A stretch of DNA of 26,244 nt from a virus, in IMG/VR virus record IMGVR_UViG_3300040770_000241, positions 1 to 26,244 of that record; one strand, 5' to 3'. Below the pieces are notes generated by a model, which saw only the letters and a program-made list of their open reading frames with translations, did no database searches and had not been told where the DNA came from. The position numbers and the translations under genes are program-made. Positions 7,676-23,265 of this stretch are shown piece after piece (the first letter of the stretch is position 1; each line of letters starts with the position of its first letter).

Positions 7676-8773
7676 TTAGTCACAAATATACGAAATTTTT
7701 TCTTTATTTATACCACTTAATGCGAGATTTAACCAATTAATTTGGAAGTCTTGGTCACTCACAAAGATGTGAATATCAGCATCTTCCGTGTCTGTAAGTA
7801 AGCTTCTACCAAGCATTTGCTCTAGGTTTTCTCCATTACTATTTATAGCTGTAATCAATACAGTTTTTAAGTTTGGATACGTTATTCCTGCAGAACCTTT
7901 TTTAATTAAACACAGTTGATTGATACTCCCATTTAAAAAAGAAAGCATTACGTCATTTGTTTCACTCTTGCTATTGTACATTGGAAGATTGTATTTAAGC
8001 CCAATCTTCTCATCTCCTGTAAACAATATAAATCTTTCATTTGGATTTTTAACAATCCATCTATTAACACATGCTATTAAAGAATTAGTACTATTTATAA
8101 ATCTCATTCTATTTAGTGCAGCAAACATTTTTGCTTGACCAAAAGCTTTCGAAATTTGTTTAGACATTCTTAAACATTCTGCTAATTCAGTATTCTTCCA
8201 TTTTTTTACTTTACCATATTGAACAGGTATAGTGCTATTTAGTTTATACTGGTGTACAATAATTTTAAAATCACTAACAATACCATCTTTAATAGCATCT
8301 TCTGTTGAATAATTTACAATCTTTTTTAGAAAAGTTTCACTTCTTATAGCAGCCATGGTTTCTTCACTAAAAGTACCAGAGGCAAGGATTAAATGTTTAT
8401 TGTTTTTTGCTAATAAGGCCACTGCTGGAAGTTGATTTTCTTCTCCTAAAAGATGTGCTTCGTCTACTACAACATAATCAAACTTTTTGTCTTTAACTTT
8501 TTCTATAGATGCAAATGTTGAATAAGTAATATTTGGATGGTAATCCATTTTATCACATTCATCTGTCCAAGACTTTTTAATATCTATATTTGGATATAAA
8601 ACTAAAATAGTTTTTGCTGCAACTTTTTTGTCAAACGCTTGAGAATGAATTCCAATAGCACTTAACAAAATACGAGTTTTACCACTTCTTACTGAGGACA
8701 AAACTATTCCTCTAAAATTGCTATCAATAATTTTGTTAATAATTAATTTTTGTACTTCGTCTTTTTTTGTCAT
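7676..8773 (-). CDS. SF2 DEAH-box helicase
   Basis: This 365-residue superfamily 2 helicase has motif I SSVRSGKT at 26-33, motif II DEAH at 104-107, motif III ASGTF at about 131-135, and a C-terminal RecA domain with GSAGITY and motif VI QMLGRSL. It is compact, close to the minimal two-domain core, like UvsW/RadD-type phage helicases that remodel forks and recombination intermediates. There is no nuclease or zinc domain. Its ATG overlaps the stop of the small 8773-8958 gene by one base, suggesting coupling. The specific substrate cannot be read from sequence; recombination-dependent replication is inferred from the adjacent Sak4-like gene. Confidence 0.88.
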   Translation of the reverse strand: MTKKDEVQKLIINKIIDSNFRGIVLSSVRSGKTRILLSAIGIHSQAFDKKVAAKTILVLYPNIDIKKSWTDECDKMDYHPNITYSTFASIEKVKDKKFDYVVVDEAHLLGEENQLPAVALLAKNNKHLILASGTFSEETMAAIRSETFLKKIVNYSTEDAIKDGIVSDFKIIVHQYKLNSTIPVQYGKVKKWKNTELAECLRMSKQISKAFGQAKMFAALNRMRFINSTNSLIACVNRWIVKNPNERFILFTGDEKIGLKYNLPMYNSKSETNDVMLSFLNGSINQLCLIKKGSAGITYPNLKTVLITAINSNGENLEQMLGRSLLTDTEDADIHIFVSDQDFQINWLNLALSGINKEKISYICD

Positions 8774-15721: not shown

Positions 15722-16009
15722 TTATAAGTTATTAATTTCATTCATAATAAAATCTAAACTATTTTCTTTTTCTTCCCTTTTCATTTCTGCTTCTTTTATT
15801 TTTAAAACAGTTAAAACAGCAGGGTGATCAAATTCTGAATGACTAACATATCTCCAAAATTTCATTCCTTCTGGAGTTTTATTATAATTAAAACCACAAG
15901 AAGCTGCATCTTTTCCTAATGTAATAAATTCATTTGCATCATTTTGTTGTAATTCTTGGTTTTTAAGAGCTAATGCTTTAAAAACAGAAGGTAAATCTTC
16001 TATTAACAT
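15722..16009 (-). CDS. Repeat-family protein 5 (ALxNQ..Q / EGxxFW domain), 95 aa
   Basis: This is the last of five consecutive paralogues. The order of motifs is LPSVFKALALKNQELQQND, then CGFNYNKTPEGMKFWRYV, a charged linker and the C-terminus DFIMNEINNL. The family pattern (L-A-L-x-N-Q-x-x-Q, G-x-F-N-W, E-G-x-x-F-W) is known to me from uncharacterised phage proteins of gut Bacteroidota and Firmicutes; I know of no function. The Q-G-N of other copies is Q-Q-N here, and Tyr replaces the Trp of G-x-F-N-W. The shared C-terminal octapeptide suggests a common partner or degradation signal. Confidence 0.65.
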   Translation of the reverse strand: MLIEDLPSVFKALALKNQELQQNDANEFITLGKDAASCGFNYNKTPEGMKFWRYVSHSEFDHPAVLTVLKIKEAEMKREEKENSLDFIMNEINNL

Positions 16010-16021
16010 AATTTTTATATT

Positions 16022-16348
16022 TTAAAGATTATTAATTTCGTTCATAAGATCTTGTAAAGAAATTTCAGCTTGTTTTTGATCTTGTAAAACATTTTCTTTC
16101 TTTTCTATTGCTTTTTTTTCTCTAATTTCTCTTAGTTTTTTTAATACATAAGGACTATCATAAAAACCATTTTTTACATCTGACCAAAAAAGAGGACCTT
16201 CTATTGTTTCTTTAACATTAAATCCTCCTTTAGACTTAGTTGTGCCTATTCTCAAATAAGCATCTTCTCTATTTCCTTGTATTTTCTGATTAGCTAGTGC
16301 TAATGTTGAAAACTTTTTAGGTAATTCATATATATAATCAAATACCAT
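16022..16348 (-). CDS. Repeat-family protein 4, 108 aa
   Basis: Motifs in order are LPKKFSTLALANQKIQGNRED, GGFNVKETIEGPLFWSDV, a long charged coiled linker (KKLREIREKKAIEKKEN) and LQDLMNEINNL at the end. The Trp of G-x-F-N-W is Val in this copy. It has the longest linker among the single-domain members. It is 12 nt from copy 5 and 2 nt from copy 3, so the set is one operon. Function unknown. Confidence 0.65.
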   Translation of the reverse strand: MVFDYIYELPKKFSTLALANQKIQGNREDAYLRIGTTKSKGGFNVKETIEGPLFWSDVKNGFYDSPYVLKKLREIREKKAIEKKENVLQDQKQAEISLQDLMNEINNL

Positions 16349-16350
16349 AA

Positions 16351-16587
16351 TTATAAGTTATTAATTTCGTTCATAATTTCTTCTAAAGTTTGTGTAGTTT
16401 CTTTATTACGATTAGCAAAAACATCTTCCCAAAACTCTTCTCCTTCTTCTGACATATCCCAATCAAAATTTCCAACGACTCTACTATCATCTAATAATAA
16501 AGTTGAATTAACTTTATTTCCTTGAAGAATTTGATTATTTCTAACTTTTACTTTTATGTGAAAAGGATAATCTGATATTTTTTTCAT
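16351..16587 (-). CDS. Repeat-family protein 3, 78 aa
   Basis: This copy reads YPFHIKVKVRNNQILQGNK, VGNFDWDMSEEGEEFWEDV and LEEIMNEINNL. The L-A-L-x-N-Q opening is diverged (VKVRNNQ), while the EEFW and C-terminal motifs are intact. It lies 2 nt from both neighbours of the array, with a CTTATAATT leader before ATG. Function unknown. Confidence 0.65.
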   Translation of the reverse strand: MKKISDYPFHIKVKVRNNQILQGNKVNSTLLLDDSRVVGNFDWDMSEEGEEFWEDVFANRNKETTQTLEEIMNEINNL

Positions 16588-16589
16588 AA

Positions 16590-16829
16590 TTATAAGTTTT
16601 TAATTTGATTCATAATATCTTCAATACTTTCTGTTTCTGGAAATTCTCCTTTACTAATGTTTTGCCAAAATTCTTCTCCTTCAAAAGACTCACTCCAATT
16701 AAAATTTCCTTGACTTTTACCATTAGAAACTAAAAGACTATCATCTTTTAAATTTCCTTGTTTTGATTGATTTTTAAAAGCTAAAAGCTGTAAATCAAAC
16801 GGAATTTCTTTTATTCTAAGTTCTACCAT
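16590..16829 (-). CDS. Repeat-family protein 2, 79 aa
   Basis: This is perhaps the most typical copy: IPFDLQLLAFKNQSKQGN, then QGNFNWSESFEGEEFWQNI and the C-terminus IEDIMNQIKNL. The first half may be helical and the second contains the aromatic F-N-W/F-W pair. Its leader (AAATAAATAAAATT before ATG) is of the operon type. Function unknown. Confidence 0.65.
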   Translation of the reverse strand: MVELRIKEIPFDLQLLAFKNQSKQGNLKDDSLLVSNGKSQGNFNWSESFEGEEFWQNISKGEFPETESIEDIMNQIKNL

Positions 16830-16849
16830 AATTTTATTTATTTAATAAT

Positions 16850-17302
16850 TTATAAACTTGCTATTTGACTCATAATATCTTCTAAAGTCTCTGATTTTTC
16901 TAAAACATTTTTATCTTTAACAGCATAATCTTTATTAACTTCTGACCAAAAAGCATGTCTTTCTCTAGATCTTGCCCAATCAAATGCTCCTGTTAAAGAA
17001 ACATTTGGATTATAATCTTTTTTTTGTGCTTTTTGATTGTTAAGTGCTAATATTCTTAAATTATCTGGTAAATCTTTTAATGATAAAAGATTGTTATAAC
17101 TGTCTCCTGTAGCATAAAATCCCATGTTAGCTTTTTCCCAAAAGCTAGCTCCTTCAAGACTTAAATCCCAACTAAAATTTCCGTCTCCTTTACTCGCTCT
17201 TATTAAAAGCTCTCTATTTGAGCTATTTCCTTGTTTTCTTTGATTACATAATGCTAGTTTTTGTATAGCTATTGGTAATTCACTTATTTTAAGACTTATC
17301 AT
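16850..17302 (-). CDS. Repeat-family protein 1, two-domain, 150 aa
   Basis: This protein has two copies of the family domain in tandem. Domain one (about 1-65) reads LPIAIQKLALCNQRKQGN and GNFSWDLSLEGASFWEKA. Domain two (about 70-125) reads LPDNLRILALNNQKAQ and GAFDWARSRERHAFWSEV. The end is LEDIMSQIASL, a diverged version of the MNEINNL tail. It is the first gene of the array and follows the tRNA. A fusion of two copies suggests ongoing duplication. Function unknown. Confidence 0.65.
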   Translation of the reverse strand: MISLKISELPIAIQKLALCNQRKQGNSSNRELLIRASKGDGNFSWDLSLEGASFWEKANMGFYATGDSYNNLLSLKDLPDNLRILALNNQKAQKKDYNPNVSLTGAFDWARSRERHAFWSEVNKDYAVKDKNVLEKSETLEDIMSQIASL

Positions 17303-17328
17303 TTTGTGTGTTTTTAGTTAATAATTGT

Positions 17329-17401
17329 GGACTAGGTGGGAGTCGAACCCACTTTTCCAGATGAAGACTGGCGCATTCCCCAATGTTACATACCCAAATC
17401 C
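17329..17401 (-). tRNA. tRNA, probably Glu (anticodon TTC), atypical
   Basis: The span is exactly 73 nt on the minus strand. The acceptor is GGATTTG / CTAGTCC (6 of 7 paired, including one G-T), followed by discriminator A; CCA is not encoded. The T arm is perfect: GTGGG, loop TTCGACT, CCCAC. The anticodon arm CCAG-TCTTCAT-CTGG has four pairs and a 7-nt loop giving anticodon TTC, but position 33 would be C rather than the near-universal T. The D stem GTAT/ATGC has a large loop containing GGGG. The T arm and acceptor make tRNA identity likely; the amino-acid call is tentative and a decayed gene is possible. Confidence 0.6.
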
Positions 17402-17473: not shown

Positions 17474-19090
17474 TTATTCTTTAACAACTTTTTCTCCTTC
17501 AGATGAATAAGAAATTATACTATTATCTGAAGAAACTCTAACTTGTTTTCCTCCTGTGTTAACACATAGAGTTTTAAGTTCAGAACTAAATTGCATAAGA
17601 GAAATAGCATTAACCTTGTAAGGAAATGCAGAAGAACCAACTGAATCTTGACCATCGTTAATAATTAAGATTTCTGGTTTTTCAAAAGAAAGATTAACGT
17701 TTAAGTTTTTAAGAGTTTTACCTCCTTTAACTTGTTCAGCTACATATCTAACAATTCTTCCCATATCTGTTCCACCTCCTGATGGATAGTTTGAAAATGT
17801 TTTCCAAAATTTTTCTACATCTTCTGCATTTTTAACATGCTGAAAATGCAAATCATCTGCTCTACTGACAAAATTACTAATATAAATTTCAGCTTCTCCT
17901 TTGATAACATATCTAAATCTATCAATAAGAATAGCATTAACCCAAATTTGTTTTTCTGTATTATTCATACTACCAGAATAATCTAACAATATAATAATCT
18001 TTTGTTTCTTTTCCCCAACTTGTACAGGTACATCAACAATAAGATTTTTTGTTATAAACTTAATTTCATAATTAGGAAACAAAGTTTGGTAAGTATTAAT
18101 CCTGTCCATTTGAGAATAATCTCTCATGACTTTTTTACGATATACATCAGAATTTGCAACAACTTTTTCTCCTGTTTCTTTTTCAACCATAAATTGTTGA
18201 CCAAGCTCCCCAATTAAAGATATTTTGTTTAAAATATTCATTTTTCTTCCTGCACTTAATGAATTCATATCAAGTTGAGTATTTAAAGCAGGATTAGAAA
18301 AATCTTCTCTTTTAAAAATTGTTATCTCATTACCACGATCTCCAGCATGTTTTTTAGTATTATTAACTGCTTCTTTATCTAAAATAGTTTGATAATAATT
18401 AGTAGCTTGTTCTAATGGAGTGTATCCAGGAATAAAAGAATTATACAAAGTTGTATACATTTCTTTCTTTTTACTAAATGTTTCATGATCCATTGTATTT
18501 TTCTTTTCTTCTTCAATAAAACTAGAATCATCTAGCATTTTAAAATAAAATAATCTACAAAGATCTTTAATCATATCAATTGATTCCTTTTTAACAACAT
18601 GAATCTTCTGTCTAATTTCTAAAGCAGTTGGCGTTAAATAACTTTCTGGTTCTTTGATAAACAAATTTGAATCATCATCATCACTATAAGCAGTAAAAAA
18701 AGTATTAAAATTTGACCATCTAGTTGGTGCCCAAGCAAAATCTTTTTTAACAGCTACTGGCGCTTTATAAGTAGCAATACCTCTAGTTCTATAAGAAGTA
18801 CTATACCCTGCAGCTTCAAACTCTTGATTATAATAATCCTCATTAGCATACAAATCAGCATATGAACGCATTGGTCTTGGTTCATAATTTGATCTAAAAT
18901 GCTTTGAATTTAACTTTCTTAACTCTTTTGCAGCTAAGTATCTATCTTTGGACTCTGATACAGTTTTATCTGCTTCTTCTCCTTTTCTAACAACATTAAT
19001 CCTATAAGAATTAGAACCAACTTGTGTTTCTCTGATATTAGAAACCTCGGATTTTTTTTTCCAAGGTTTCTCTGGTCTAAACCATGCCAT
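17474..19090 (-). CDS. VWA-domain protein, partner of MoxR-type ATPase
   Basis: This 538-residue protein has a C-terminal von Willebrand A domain with a complete MIDAS metal site: DYSGS (Asp370, Ser372, Ser374), Thr441 in GGGTDMG and Asp479 in INDGQD. The N-terminal about 340 residues are charged and of unknown fold. MoxR-type AAA+ ATPases and VWA proteins encoded side by side act as chaperone-like pairs for metal insertion or remodelling of complexes in bacteria. The ATPase gene lies 3 nt upstream here. What the phage pair remodels is unknown. The product has no signal peptide or membrane helix, so it should be cytoplasmic. Confidence 0.85.
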   Translation of the reverse strand: MAWFRPEKPWKKKSEVSNIRETQVGSNSYRINVVRKGEEADKTVSESKDRYLAAKELRKLNSKHFRSNYEPRPMRSYADLYANEDYYNQEFEAAGYSTSYRTRGIATYKAPVAVKKDFAWAPTRWSNFNTFFTAYSDDDDSNLFIKEPESYLTPTALEIRQKIHVVKKESIDMIKDLCRLFYFKMLDDSSFIEEEKKNTMDHETFSKKKEMYTTLYNSFIPGYTPLEQATNYYQTILDKEAVNNTKKHAGDRGNEITIFKREDFSNPALNTQLDMNSLSAGRKMNILNKISLIGELGQQFMVEKETGEKVVANSDVYRKKVMRDYSQMDRINTYQTLFPNYEIKFITKNLIVDVPVQVGEKKQKIIILLDYSGSMNNTEKQIWVNAILIDRFRYVIKGEAEIYISNFVSRADDLHFQHVKNAEDVEKFWKTFSNYPSGGGTDMGRIVRYVAEQVKGGKTLKNLNVNLSFEKPEILIINDGQDSVGSSAFPYKVNAISLMQFSSELKTLCVNTGGKQVRVSSDNSIISYSSEGEKVVKE

Positions 19091-19093
19091 TTA

Positions 19094-20236
19094 TTAAAAG
19101 TCAGTATTTAAATCATCTACAAGCTCAACTGATTTCTTCTTAGAAGATTTTTCTTTAACAGAATCTGATTTTGCTACAATCTCAGCATAAACAGGAGTAG
19201 TTGCAGAAAGAAAATCAGATGTAACTTTAACTAATTTAGCATGAATAGCAGCTAAAGAATCATTTACAACTAATTTTTTAACTTCGGAAGCTTTATCATT
19301 TAATCCTTTCCAGTTTTCAACATAAGCTTTTTTACCTTCTTCTGTGTTAATATCTGCAGATTTAACAGCATTAATAAATTCATTTATAACAACACCTGCC
19401 TCTTTAAATTTAATAGTAGCTTCAAATTTCTTTAATGCATCTGCAATTAATTCAGGTTTTTTACTGAATTCAGCAATGAATGATAAAGAATCAGGTCCAC
19501 AAACTTCGTAAATCTTGTAGCACTGTAAAGCAATTCTAGGACTAATCGTAATACCAGCTTTAACATACTCTTGTAACAAGAAAGGTATAACAGGATCAAT
19601 TTGTCCTTTACCAAACTTATTTTCAAGAAGAGTTGTGTAACTAATATCAGTATAGTTTGCCCATACAACATTATGTTCTAATGGAAATCTTTCCATAAGG
19701 GCTTTTAAAGAGTCATTCTTAGAAAACTCTGCACGAGTTTTATTAGTATTACCTACAATGAATCTAGTTTTAATAGGATATACTTGTGTACCATTTCTAA
19801 ACACTCCTGAAGATAGAATATCTTTCAACTGCTCTAAAATAAAATCAGGTGAATCCATTAATTCTTCAAATACAACGTATTCATGGTTCATGAAACTATT
19901 TTCAACTAAGTATTCAAGTTTACCATCATTGTGATATTTAGGAATATCTAACCCACCAAACAATCTATCAGTAGTCATACCAGTTCCCATTGTTAATACA
20001 TATGGATTAATTCCTTTCTCATAAAAGAATTCCATTGTAAGCTCTGATTTACCATGACCACCTGGTCCGTATAAAACTATATTAGTTTCTGTTTTCAAAC
20101 CAATTTCAAGAAGTGCTAATGGTTTATCCATAAACACAAACTTTTTTAGTAAAGAAACTTCCACTGCTGCTTCTTCTTGTTTTTTAACTGTTGTTCTAGT
20201 TTTTCTTACTACTTCTTTTTTAACCGCTGTTGCCAT
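19094..20236 (-). CDS. MoxR-type AAA+ ATPase
   Basis: This 380-residue AAA+ protein has a Walker A in LYGPGGHGKSE (Gly57-Ser64) and a Walker B-like YVVFEELMD (about 121-129) in which the usual Asp is Glu, followed by a Glu. A sensor-1 Asn lies in FIVGNTNKT, and the predicted insertion SGVFRNGTQVYPIKTRF is typical of the MoxR/CbbQ clade (YPLP-like helix 2 insert). The N-terminal 20 residues and the last about 20 are basic linkers. It is followed 3 nt later by a VWA gene, the classic operon pair. The start is preceded by AAATAATAAATCAAAAAAAAC. It is the first gene after a terminator, so it begins a unit. Confidence 0.88.
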   Translation of the reverse strand: MATAVKKEVVRKTRTTVKKQEEAAVEVSLLKKFVFMDKPLALLEIGLKTETNIVLYGPGGHGKSELTMEFFYEKGINPYVLTMGTGMTTDRLFGGLDIPKYHNDGKLEYLVENSFMNHEYVVFEELMDSPDFILEQLKDILSSGVFRNGTQVYPIKTRFIVGNTNKTRAEFSKNDSLKALMERFPLEHNVVWANYTDISYTTLLENKFGKGQIDPVIPFLLQEYVKAGITISPRIALQCYKIYEVCGPDSLSFIAEFSKKPELIADALKKFEATIKFKEAGVVINEFINAVKSADINTEEGKKAYVENWKGLNDKASEVKKLVVNDSLAAIHAKLVKVTSDFLSATTPVYAEIVAKSDSVKEKSSKKKSVELVDDLNTDF

Positions 20237-21733: not shown

Positions 21734-21748
21734 CCTAGAATTACTTCA

Positions 21749-21816
21749 TTATACTGTAAGATTCGAACTTACATTTCTCAATTAAGAGCGCGCACTACCA
21801 ATTGGACGAAGTATAA
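21749..21816 (-). tRNA. tRNA-like gene, short and atypical (Lys CTT or Leu TAA possible)
   Basis: A perfect 7-bp acceptor TTATACT/AGTATAA and a perfect T arm GTAAG-TTCGAAT-CTTAC are at the correct spacing. The D loop AATTGGTAG contains the invariant GG, although the D stem is weak. The stretch between D and T arms is about 4 nt short and the anticodon stem is reduced to CTC/GAG. The loop reads CTCTTAA or CTTAATT depending on alignment, so the identity is unclear. It is only 68 nt long. A pseudogene or unusual tRNA is likely; CCA is not encoded. Confidence 0.5.
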
Positions 21817-22060: not shown

Positions 22061-22567
22061 TTACTCCCTAAGTATTTCTAATAAAAACATCATTTGTTTG
22101 TGAGACATTGAGCTTTTCATTAAATTCATAGAAATACTTATAAATTGAATATTACCTTTAATATACCCTTGACTGGAATCAATCCTGTCTAATGAAGCAG
22201 TATATAAAGGAGAATTATTTTTAGCAGGATGAACAAGAGATACCCTTGAATAAGAACAAATTCCTTTTTGTAAATCCCACTGTTCTTTTAGGTTTTCCAA
22301 AGACATTGTAACCAATTTGTTTCTTCTAGTAGCTCTTCTAAAATGTTCTCTAAATGGTGTAAACTCATCTCTTCTATTACTAGGATTTAATTTAGATACA
22401 TCTTTATTACTAACAGTAGCTAAATGAGCTAGATTAGCAGAACTTTTTCCTACACAACTTCTAGAACAATATTGTCTTCTTTTTAAACTAACAGAACGTC
22501 TAACCTCTCTTGAACTTTTTTCAAAAGATTTACCACAATGCTCGCACATTACATTTTCATTTTTCAT
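22061..22567 (-). CDS. HNH homing-type endonuclease
   Basis: The 168-residue product has a zinc-finger-like N-terminus (Cys8-x-x-Cys11 and Cys34-x3-Cys38) followed by an HNH core. That core is G-I-C-S-Y-S (Cys104), SLDRIDSSQGYIKGNIQF (about 125-142) and S-M-N-L-M-K-S. This is the pattern of free-standing phage HNH nucleases that cut DNA to spread their own gene. The start chosen is the ATG at 22567, preceded by an A-rich GTAAAAAAGAAATT leader. An upstream ATG at 22594 would add nine residues (MYYLCKKEI) and no leader motif. It lies inside the RNA island, flanked by the tmRNA 3'-end repeats. The remainder of the island has no coding sequence. Confidence 0.85.
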   Translation of the reverse strand: MKNENVMCEHCGKSFEKSSREVRRSVSLKRRQYCSRSCVGKSSANLAHLATVSNKDVSKLNPSNRRDEFTPFREHFRRATRRNKLVTMSLENLKEQWDLQKGICSYSRVSLVHPAKNNSPLYTASLDRIDSSQGYIKGNIQFISISMNLMKSSMSHKQMMFLLEILRE

Positions 22568-22580
22568 AATTTCTTTTTTA

Positions 22581-22612
22581 CAAAGATAATACAAATATGT
22601 GTAATGTGCAAG
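22581..22612 (-). promoter_or_regulatory. Possible Bacteroidota-type promoter for the HNH gene
   Basis: On the minus strand TATCTTTG (22588-22581) matches the TAnnTTTG -7 box. CTTG (22612-22609), 20 nt upstream, is one mismatch from the TTTG -33 box. Transcription would begin only a few bases before the HNH start codon. It lies between the right repeat and the gene, so the cassette would carry its own promoter. Confidence 0.4.
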
Positions 22613-22628
22613 GAATTTGTGTGTAAAG

Positions 22629-23005
22629 TGGAGGCGGAGAGGCTCGAACTCTCGTCTTACTTATTTCAATTATAAAATTTTATACAGCTTCTTGTATCAT
22701 TTAATCTTTAACGTCCCTTAAACAATACTAAATGTGGACAATGCTCAATGCTTCTTTTCCTCATAAGCTAGAGGTAATCACCTAATCTTTGGTTAGGCAG
22801 CCACAGCTAGTTCTCCCATTATAATATCAGAAGATTGACGAACTGAAATTTCACCATTTAAAATGTTGTGAACTACAGTCATGTTAGCTTGTACTTGGGT
22901 ATTCTCTTTTGTGTTTCCATTTAGAATGATTTCACCTTAGTTTACAGTTATCTCTCTGGCTGAATTTTATAAAATATACTAAGCAATCAAATCCATGTCG
23001 CCCCC
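22629..23005 (-). ncRNA. ssrA: Transfer-messenger RNA (tmRNA) with long tag frame
   Basis: This tmRNA rescues stalled ribosomes and tags the nascent peptide. The tRNA-like domain is complete: 5' GGGGGCG (23005-22999) pairs with 3' CGCCTCC (22636-22630), discriminator A at 22629, and T arm GAGAG-TTCGAGC-CTCTC (22653-22637) preceded by GAC as in E. coli. The D-loop-like ATGGATTTGA follows the 5' strand. A long-range P2 helix pairs TATAAAATT (22971-22963) with AATTTTATA (22679-22671), plus CTTA/TAAG. The tag frame starts at GGA (22918-22916, nucleotide 88; E. coli 90) with U-A at -5/-4, and runs 41 codons to ...GELAVAA and TAA (22795-22793). The stop sits in a hairpin (CCTAA/TTAGG), as in known tmRNAs. 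CCA is not encoded. Total 377 nt. Confidence 0.85.
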
Positions 23006-23265
23006 ATGTTTTTTAATACAACCAAGTAAGCTCTCCAAAAGATCGTCTCTTATGTATCCCCTCATGTAAGGAGAGCTATGTTGGAAGTTGACTGTTTACT
23101 CATACCGCAGACAAGAAATGCGATTTTGTACTAAAACCACCAAAAAAGTGAGTGTTTAACCATAAACACACAAGATATGAAGTTAACCTGTACACTTCCA
23201 GTTCAATTGTAGTGACAATTCTTTGTAAATCTCTTTACAGGTACTAAGCCAGGTACAATATATTA
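23006..23265. other. Non-coding spacer with hairpins between AAA+ ATPase gene and tmRNA
   Basis: About 260 nt without a frame. The stems are AGCTCTCC/GGAGAGCT (23029-23036 with 23070-23077), GTGTTTA-ACCA-TAAACAC (23152-23169) and AATTGT-AGTG-ACAATT (23205-23220). A 57-nt unit closed by ACCTGTA/TACAGGT (23186-23192 with 23236-23242) contains that last hairpin. No canonical tRNA T loop is seen. This may hold leader or processing signals for the tmRNA, or additional small RNAs. Confidence 0.45.

Follow-up and report, generated by a model that had tools for sequence, protein, structure and literature searches.

The window (the whole stretch of DNA analysed, a virus record of 26,244 bases) carries on its minus strand a tmRNA gene with an exceptionally long tag. 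This gene belongs to a family of phage tmRNAs in which a core within the tag is conserved at the peptide level. Taken as a whole, the observations are best explained, with a probability of roughly 0.55, by a working phage tmRNA whose two-part tag would combine a docking element with a ClpX-type degradation signal. tmRNA tags are usually viewed as brief signals for degradation that can hold little else. Tags three to five times longer, with a conserved and probably helical peptide, show that a tag can evolve in the way a small protein does. A literature search for such long conserved tmRNA tags found none described, and the family is real, conserved and apparently undescribed as a class.

We read the minus strand of positions 22500-23150 and scanned it with Rfam. 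The RF00023 model matched over its full length (model positions 1-374) at 23005-22626 with 63.1 bits and E = 1.1e-22, above the gathering cut-off of 47 bits. The initial annotation had claimed a minus-strand tmRNA here and had proposed a covariance search and an ARAGORN run as checks; the former thus bears out the claim, and the latter did not detect the window gene. The 7-bp acceptor, the T arm, the GAC flank, the long P2 and the resume codon at nt 88 were all found as first described. Together with the acceptor and the T arm, a D-loop analogue without a D stem makes up the tRNA-like domain. The acceptor contains G3.U70, the alanine identity pair. That the element is a tmRNA is, in our judgement, virtually certain. 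Its parts, in the order of transcription after the gene itself, are:

22629-23005, minus strand: tmRNA gene, mature RNA without CCA, A73 at 22629; RF00023 at 63.1 bits, perfect acceptor and T stems
22999-23005, minus strand: acceptor stem, 5′ strand GGGGGCG, partner 22636-22630, with G3.U70
22959-22988, minus strand: P2 helix, 5′ strand, forming a duplex with 22688-22654
22932-22952, minus strand: conserved pre-tag element GATAACTGTAAACTAAGGTGA (PK1 region), the motif that collected the family
22916-22918, minus strand: resume codon GGA (nt 88) with UAAAU just before it, assigned by family-wide resume-site conservation
22793-22918, minus strand: tag reading frame, 41 codons plus TAA, open in 86/86 tags with the other frames closed in 86/86
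22859-22897, minus strand: conserved tag core QVQANMTVVHNIL, from codon-position conservation, with a predicted helix at residues 7-20
22796-22810, minus strand: degron-like C-terminal LAVAA, from tag ends across the family
22630-22792, minus strand: post-tag part, 163 nt, which holds the 3′ halves of P2, the T arm and the acceptor
22654-22688, minus strand: P2 helix, 3′ strand, starting GCTGTATA, from own versus swapped partner pairing
22637-22653, minus strand: T arm GAGAG-TTCGAGC-CTCTC, from sequence, RF00023 and a perfect 5-bp T stem
22630-22636, minus strand: acceptor stem, 3′ strand CGCCTCC, followed by A73 at 22629; CCA is not encoded

The window tag reads GNTKENTQVQANMTVVHNILNGEISVRQSSDIIMGELAVAA over 41 codons (22918-22796) and is followed by the stop TAA at 22795-22793, in agreement with the frame first proposed. 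The GCT at 22888-22886, which had been named as an alternative resume codon giving a 31-codon tag, is codon 11 in that frame. GGA was favoured over it, as the U-A at −5/−4 is kept and a conserved Q lies between GGA and GCT. The hairpin said to hold the tag stop was seen in the minimum free energy fold of the single sequence, and in that fold alone.

The relatives were collected with the motif GATAACTGN{2,8}AACTAAGGTGA, which sits upstream of the tag; since it is RNA outside the tag, the tag conservation described below is not circular. The motif matched at least 119 stretches in IMG/VR, yielding at least 100 tmRNA relatives. It matched three times in 84,980 cellular genomes, with no resume site, no T arm and no tmRNA around any of the three. 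The distribution of the long-tag tmRNA is therefore restricted to viruses in the collections searched, and recent acquisition from a host was rejected, the three matches in those cellular genomes being attributable to chance. Three isolate lineages matched: Callevirus, Akihdevirus (Crassvirales) and Fipvunavirus. By DNA search, tmRNAs were located in the Callevirus phages Calle_1, phi38:1 and phi40:1 (Pervagoviridae), in phi14:2 (Crassvirales, Steigviridae) and in the Fipvunavirus of Flavobacterium psychrophilum, and the isolates' long tags share a common core (GNDTDNTQLKANMTVVHNILNGSDALIGSSVQKLAMVA, GNTNNSVVSLEDNAQVEANMNMAFSLIREDVAVAA, GNNTNAVNAQIEANMEAVNAILNLEVAVGV). Known hosts of the family were Bacteroidota in every case. 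Bacteroidota dominate in the gut and the sea, where crAss-like phages rank among the viruses of highest abundance.

We delimited 79 distinct complete tmRNAs (the window gene and 78 relatives) of 300-473 nt. Acceptor and T-stem pairs were formed in 12/12 positions in each of them, a count biased upwards by the choice of ends for best pairing. The family has 11 fully paired versions of the acceptor; G3.U70 is present in all, and CCA is encoded in none. P2 covaries across the family: pairing with the own partner averaged −14.2 kcal/mol, compared with −8.9 kcal/mol when partners were swapped between members.

Tags were compared as 86 distinct DNA sequences, corresponding to 83 peptides. Their length ranged from 24 to 49 codons, most often 35 (29/86). 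Internal stops were found in 0/86 tag frames, and both other frames were closed in 86/86, so length changes are always in frame. A tag frame broken while the stems are kept, which the initial annotation had named as evidence against its claim, was looked for among the relatives; the frame was open in all 86 with the stems kept, and the exceptional length is borne out by these unbroken frames. The resume site had U at −5 in 85/86 and A at both −4 and −3 in 86/86, and the resume codon began with G in 86/86 (GGA, GGC and GAC were seen). Tags ended in AA (80/86), VA (5/86) or GV (1/86). LAVAA, which had been presented as uncommon, is indeed the end of the window tag; it is not unusual, as VAA closes 43/86 tags of the family. 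The tags therefore represent a variant rather than a standard short tag, from which they depart in length but not in their end (AA or VA in 85/86). The full long tag is very probably translated, and its length is probably functional.

tmRNAs usually have four pseudoknots around the tag. The proposal that the tag takes their place was not supported. Tag and post-tag lengths were uncorrelated (Spearman rho 0.005, p 0.96, n = 79 distinct tmRNAs), and replacement of the pseudoknot ring by the tag was rejected on that basis. The post-tag part measured 125-280 nt family-wide and was short in many members. The short members, with only 125-129 nt, had few consensus helices after the tag; the pre-tag element was conserved.

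In the tag alignment, the core has the consensus Q-[VI]-x-A-N-M-x-x-V-[FH]-[SN]-[LI]-[LI]. Bases 1 and 2 of the Q, A and N codons were fixed in 70/70 distinct cores, with base 3 variable, and the codons of V and of both L/I positions followed a like pattern. Mean entropy at codon positions 1, 2 and 3 was 0.86, 0.56 and 1.25 bits (Met excluded), and in-frame pN/pS was 0.39, with pS near saturation. Variation of the third base with the first two fixed is what a peptide that is translated and under constraint leaves behind, and the pattern includes the codons upstream of the internal ATG; we are left with hardly any doubt that the core is selected as a peptide. Its conservation lies far above that of the flanking parts: the N-terminal part is variable, beginning with G-N, G-K, D-N or D-K, and the linker between the core and the tag end is very variable in length.

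Read directly from the sequence, the hydrophobic residues of the core are spaced 4-3-4, the pattern of an amphipathic helix. AlphaFold2 predicted a helix at residues 7-20, with a mean pLDDT of about 85 over 11-20, and another, weaker one at 30-40; overall confidence was low (pTM 0.38). A known protein for the core was looked for and not found: neither Pfam models nor solved structures in the PDB matched it, and its matches in the phage collection were tmRNAs only. An antisense gene over the tag, considered on account of spurious CDSs in phi40:1 and phi14:2, was rejected, the antisense frames having stops in 84, 46 and 85 of the 86 tags.

Two core types, NKVFSLL and TVVHNIL, were noted, and N-terminal parts, cores and linkers occur in differing combinations, a mosaic that suggests recombination between tags. 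The record IMGVR_UViG_3300025853_000041 has two family tmRNAs, at 7947-8326 (L010) and 103911-104311 (L034). Their N-terminal parts and cores are nearly equal and their linkers differ, as if one copy had been duplicated and its tag end had then diverged. In a divergent member found on two contigs (L059 and L120), the tag has 49 codons and the ANM core is absent; the N-terminal part, an -AIAA end and all RNA stems are retained.

The family may have gone unnoticed owing to the behaviour of the usual annotation tool. ARAGORN called 58 of the 79 family genes and missed 21, including that of the window; most of the called tags were truncated. Its stop was the same as ours in all 58, and its longest tag had 33 codons; longer tags were begun at internal codons, for example AQIEANMEAVNAILNLEVAVGV. 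These internal starts differ among close relatives, which, together with the ceiling of 33 codons, indicates a limitation of the program itself. The tmRNA of Cellulophaga phage Calle has been counted as one tmRNA and nothing more (PMC8776804; MT732432). It is a member of the family. Its Rfam match spans 42950-43311, about 50 nt off the deposited coordinates (43002-43361), and ARAGORN loses the first 8 of its 30 tag codons. The phi14:2 record has a spurious CDS at the locus and no annotated tmRNA. In the tmRNA database, with 97,179 tmRNAs, the commonest tag length is 10 aa; the 2025 paper describing the database mentions 2-aa tags and no long class (PMC11915505). Sequences of the RefSeq members of the family may be present there, uncommented.

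As to mechanism, SmpB and ClpP were each found above the cut-off in 0/30 phage records; phage-encoded copies were thus ruled out there, and the RNA has to rely on factors of the host. The phage tmRNA would work with host SmpB, AlaRS, EF-Tu and proteases: it would enter a stalled ribosome, add alanine and switch to GGA at nt 88, after which the 41-residue tag would be appended to the stalled chain. The tag would have two parts, an amphipathic helix (QVxANMxxVxxIL) joined through a variable linker to a ClpX-type end, -AVAA. An -AA end fits ClpX-type recognition as known from ssrA degrons. The helix would most likely dock on a protease, adaptor or chaperone of the host; proteins tagged in infection would then be degraded faster than with the host 9-residue tag, or by a different route. 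The best analogy is a docking element that determines or accelerates proteolysis, as in Mesoplasma, whose longer tag is read by Lon (PMC9382460); for such a docking-degron role we put the chances a little below even. Against it, the canonical -AA end alone might suffice for degradation, and the core would then be unexplained by degradation.

The same conservation of the core, far exceeding that of the flanking parts, could also reflect an activity apart from degradation, in which a target of host or phage origin (for example a protease, the ribosome or a defence component) is bound by tagged fragments or by the tag peptide, the -AA end serving only to limit their lifetime. The contig with two tmRNAs that share a core and differ in their linkers would agree with this. 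However, a degradation-type end is found in 85/86 tags and would be needless for a stable effector, and the core resembles no known protein family; we consider such an activity unlikely. A broader proposal, in which Bacteroidota phages of several families share one tmRNA lineage where the proteolysis tag has become a conserved two-domain peptide whose helical core has a role other than ordinary degradation (for example in recruitment of a specific host factor or in interference with host proteolysis or defence), is somewhat less doubtful, and we put it forward tentatively. About 35 residues is close to the length of the ribosomal exit tunnel. As 35 codons is also the commonest tag length, the tag might matter by its length, filling the tunnel until the truncated protein has wholly emerged ahead of release, or the core might work within the tunnel as a regulatory nascent peptide. 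The range of tag lengths and the widely varying distance from core to stop speak against this, and a pure length effect would not keep Q, A, N, M and V as protein; we regard it as improbable.

Two further readings would make the long tag itself illusory or divide it. The truncated tags that ARAGORN gives for many relatives would suit a short true tag with an internal start, the tag region being conserved as RNA structure. Yet third codon bases vary freely over fixed first and second bases, a pattern by which conservation as RNA only was ruled out. Moreover, resume determinants precede GGA, GGC or GAC in all 86 tags, and the internal starts are inconsistent among close relatives; we hold this reading to be very improbable. 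The internal ATG (22882-22880), to which the initial annotation had drawn attention, occurs in every core-bearing tag and might start a separate 29-residue protein from the same RNA. It is indeed invariant there, encoding the Met of ANM, yet the codons on either side are conserved as protein, which makes it a part of the tag and not clearly a separate start. Met has no codon other than ATG, and conservation of the peptide is thus enough to fix it; the preceding Q, A and N are conserved with synonymous changes, and the divergent member on L059 and L120 is without the ANM motif. We give a separate protein scarcely any credence. The docking and degradation tag remains our preferred account, and the long-tag family gives direct access to the question of why phages carry tmRNA. 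With the cultured phages Calle, phi14:2 and FpV4, these questions are testable now.

Relative to the canonical one-piece tmRNA (RF00023), the family shares the G3.U70 acceptor, the T arm, P2, the pre-tag element, UA ahead of a G-starting resume codon and a small hydrophobic tag end; it differs in its 24-49 codons with a conserved core, against a commonest tag length of 10 aa (PMC11915505). Bacteroidota-type tags (GENNYALAA, GETNYALAA, GESNYALAA), taken for this comparison from IMG/VR contigs outside the family that show the D- and T-loop signatures of a tmRNA, likewise have Gly first and a small hydrophobic end. In contrast, they have 9 codons, no core and another pre-tag sequence. The Mesoplasma florum tag has 27 residues. 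It resembles the family tags in being longer, with an extra part that sets the protease, mf-Lon (PMC9382460), but it is cellular, ends in NYAFA and is unrelated in sequence. The tmRNAs of Bxz1-group mycobacteriophages, Bacillus phage G and Melnitz are, like those of the family, phage-borne ssrA dependent on host factors; PMC4131195 and PMC9004378 report no long conserved tag for any of these, and the tmRNA of Melnitz is in addition two-piece, permuted and derived from the host lineage.

The window also encodes a family A DNA polymerase, a DnaB-like helicase, a thymidylate synthase, an RIIA-like protein and an AAA ATPase. Relatives of the helicase in phage records were from crAss-like, Flavobacterium, Cellulophaga and Bacteroides phages, except for one Leptolyngbya phage and a few names uninformative as to host; these hosts point to Bacteroidota as the likely host of the window virus. 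Most genomes had no conserved partner gene beside the tmRNA, and such a gene next door was ruled out: the commonest neighbour family reached 18/86 loci, spread over kilobases. In the window, that recurrent family is represented by a protein that matches a vWA domain only weakly (below the Pfam cut-off) and adjoins a MoxR-type AAA ATPase, the two lying at 17474-20236 (minus strand). Just downstream of the tmRNA lies an HNH endonuclease or endonuclease VII-like gene (22061-22594, minus strand). Two tRNA-like genes, at 17328-17395 and 21748-21816 (both minus strand; the latter near the tmRNA), scored 31.5 and 31.3 bits with Rfam, above the cut-off, and ARAGORN called neither. Five adjoining small ORFs at 15722-17302 (minus strand) have in common NQ...QGN, G.F.W...EG..FW and an IMNEINNL-like end, and they look like a tandemly duplicated family of a small phage protein.
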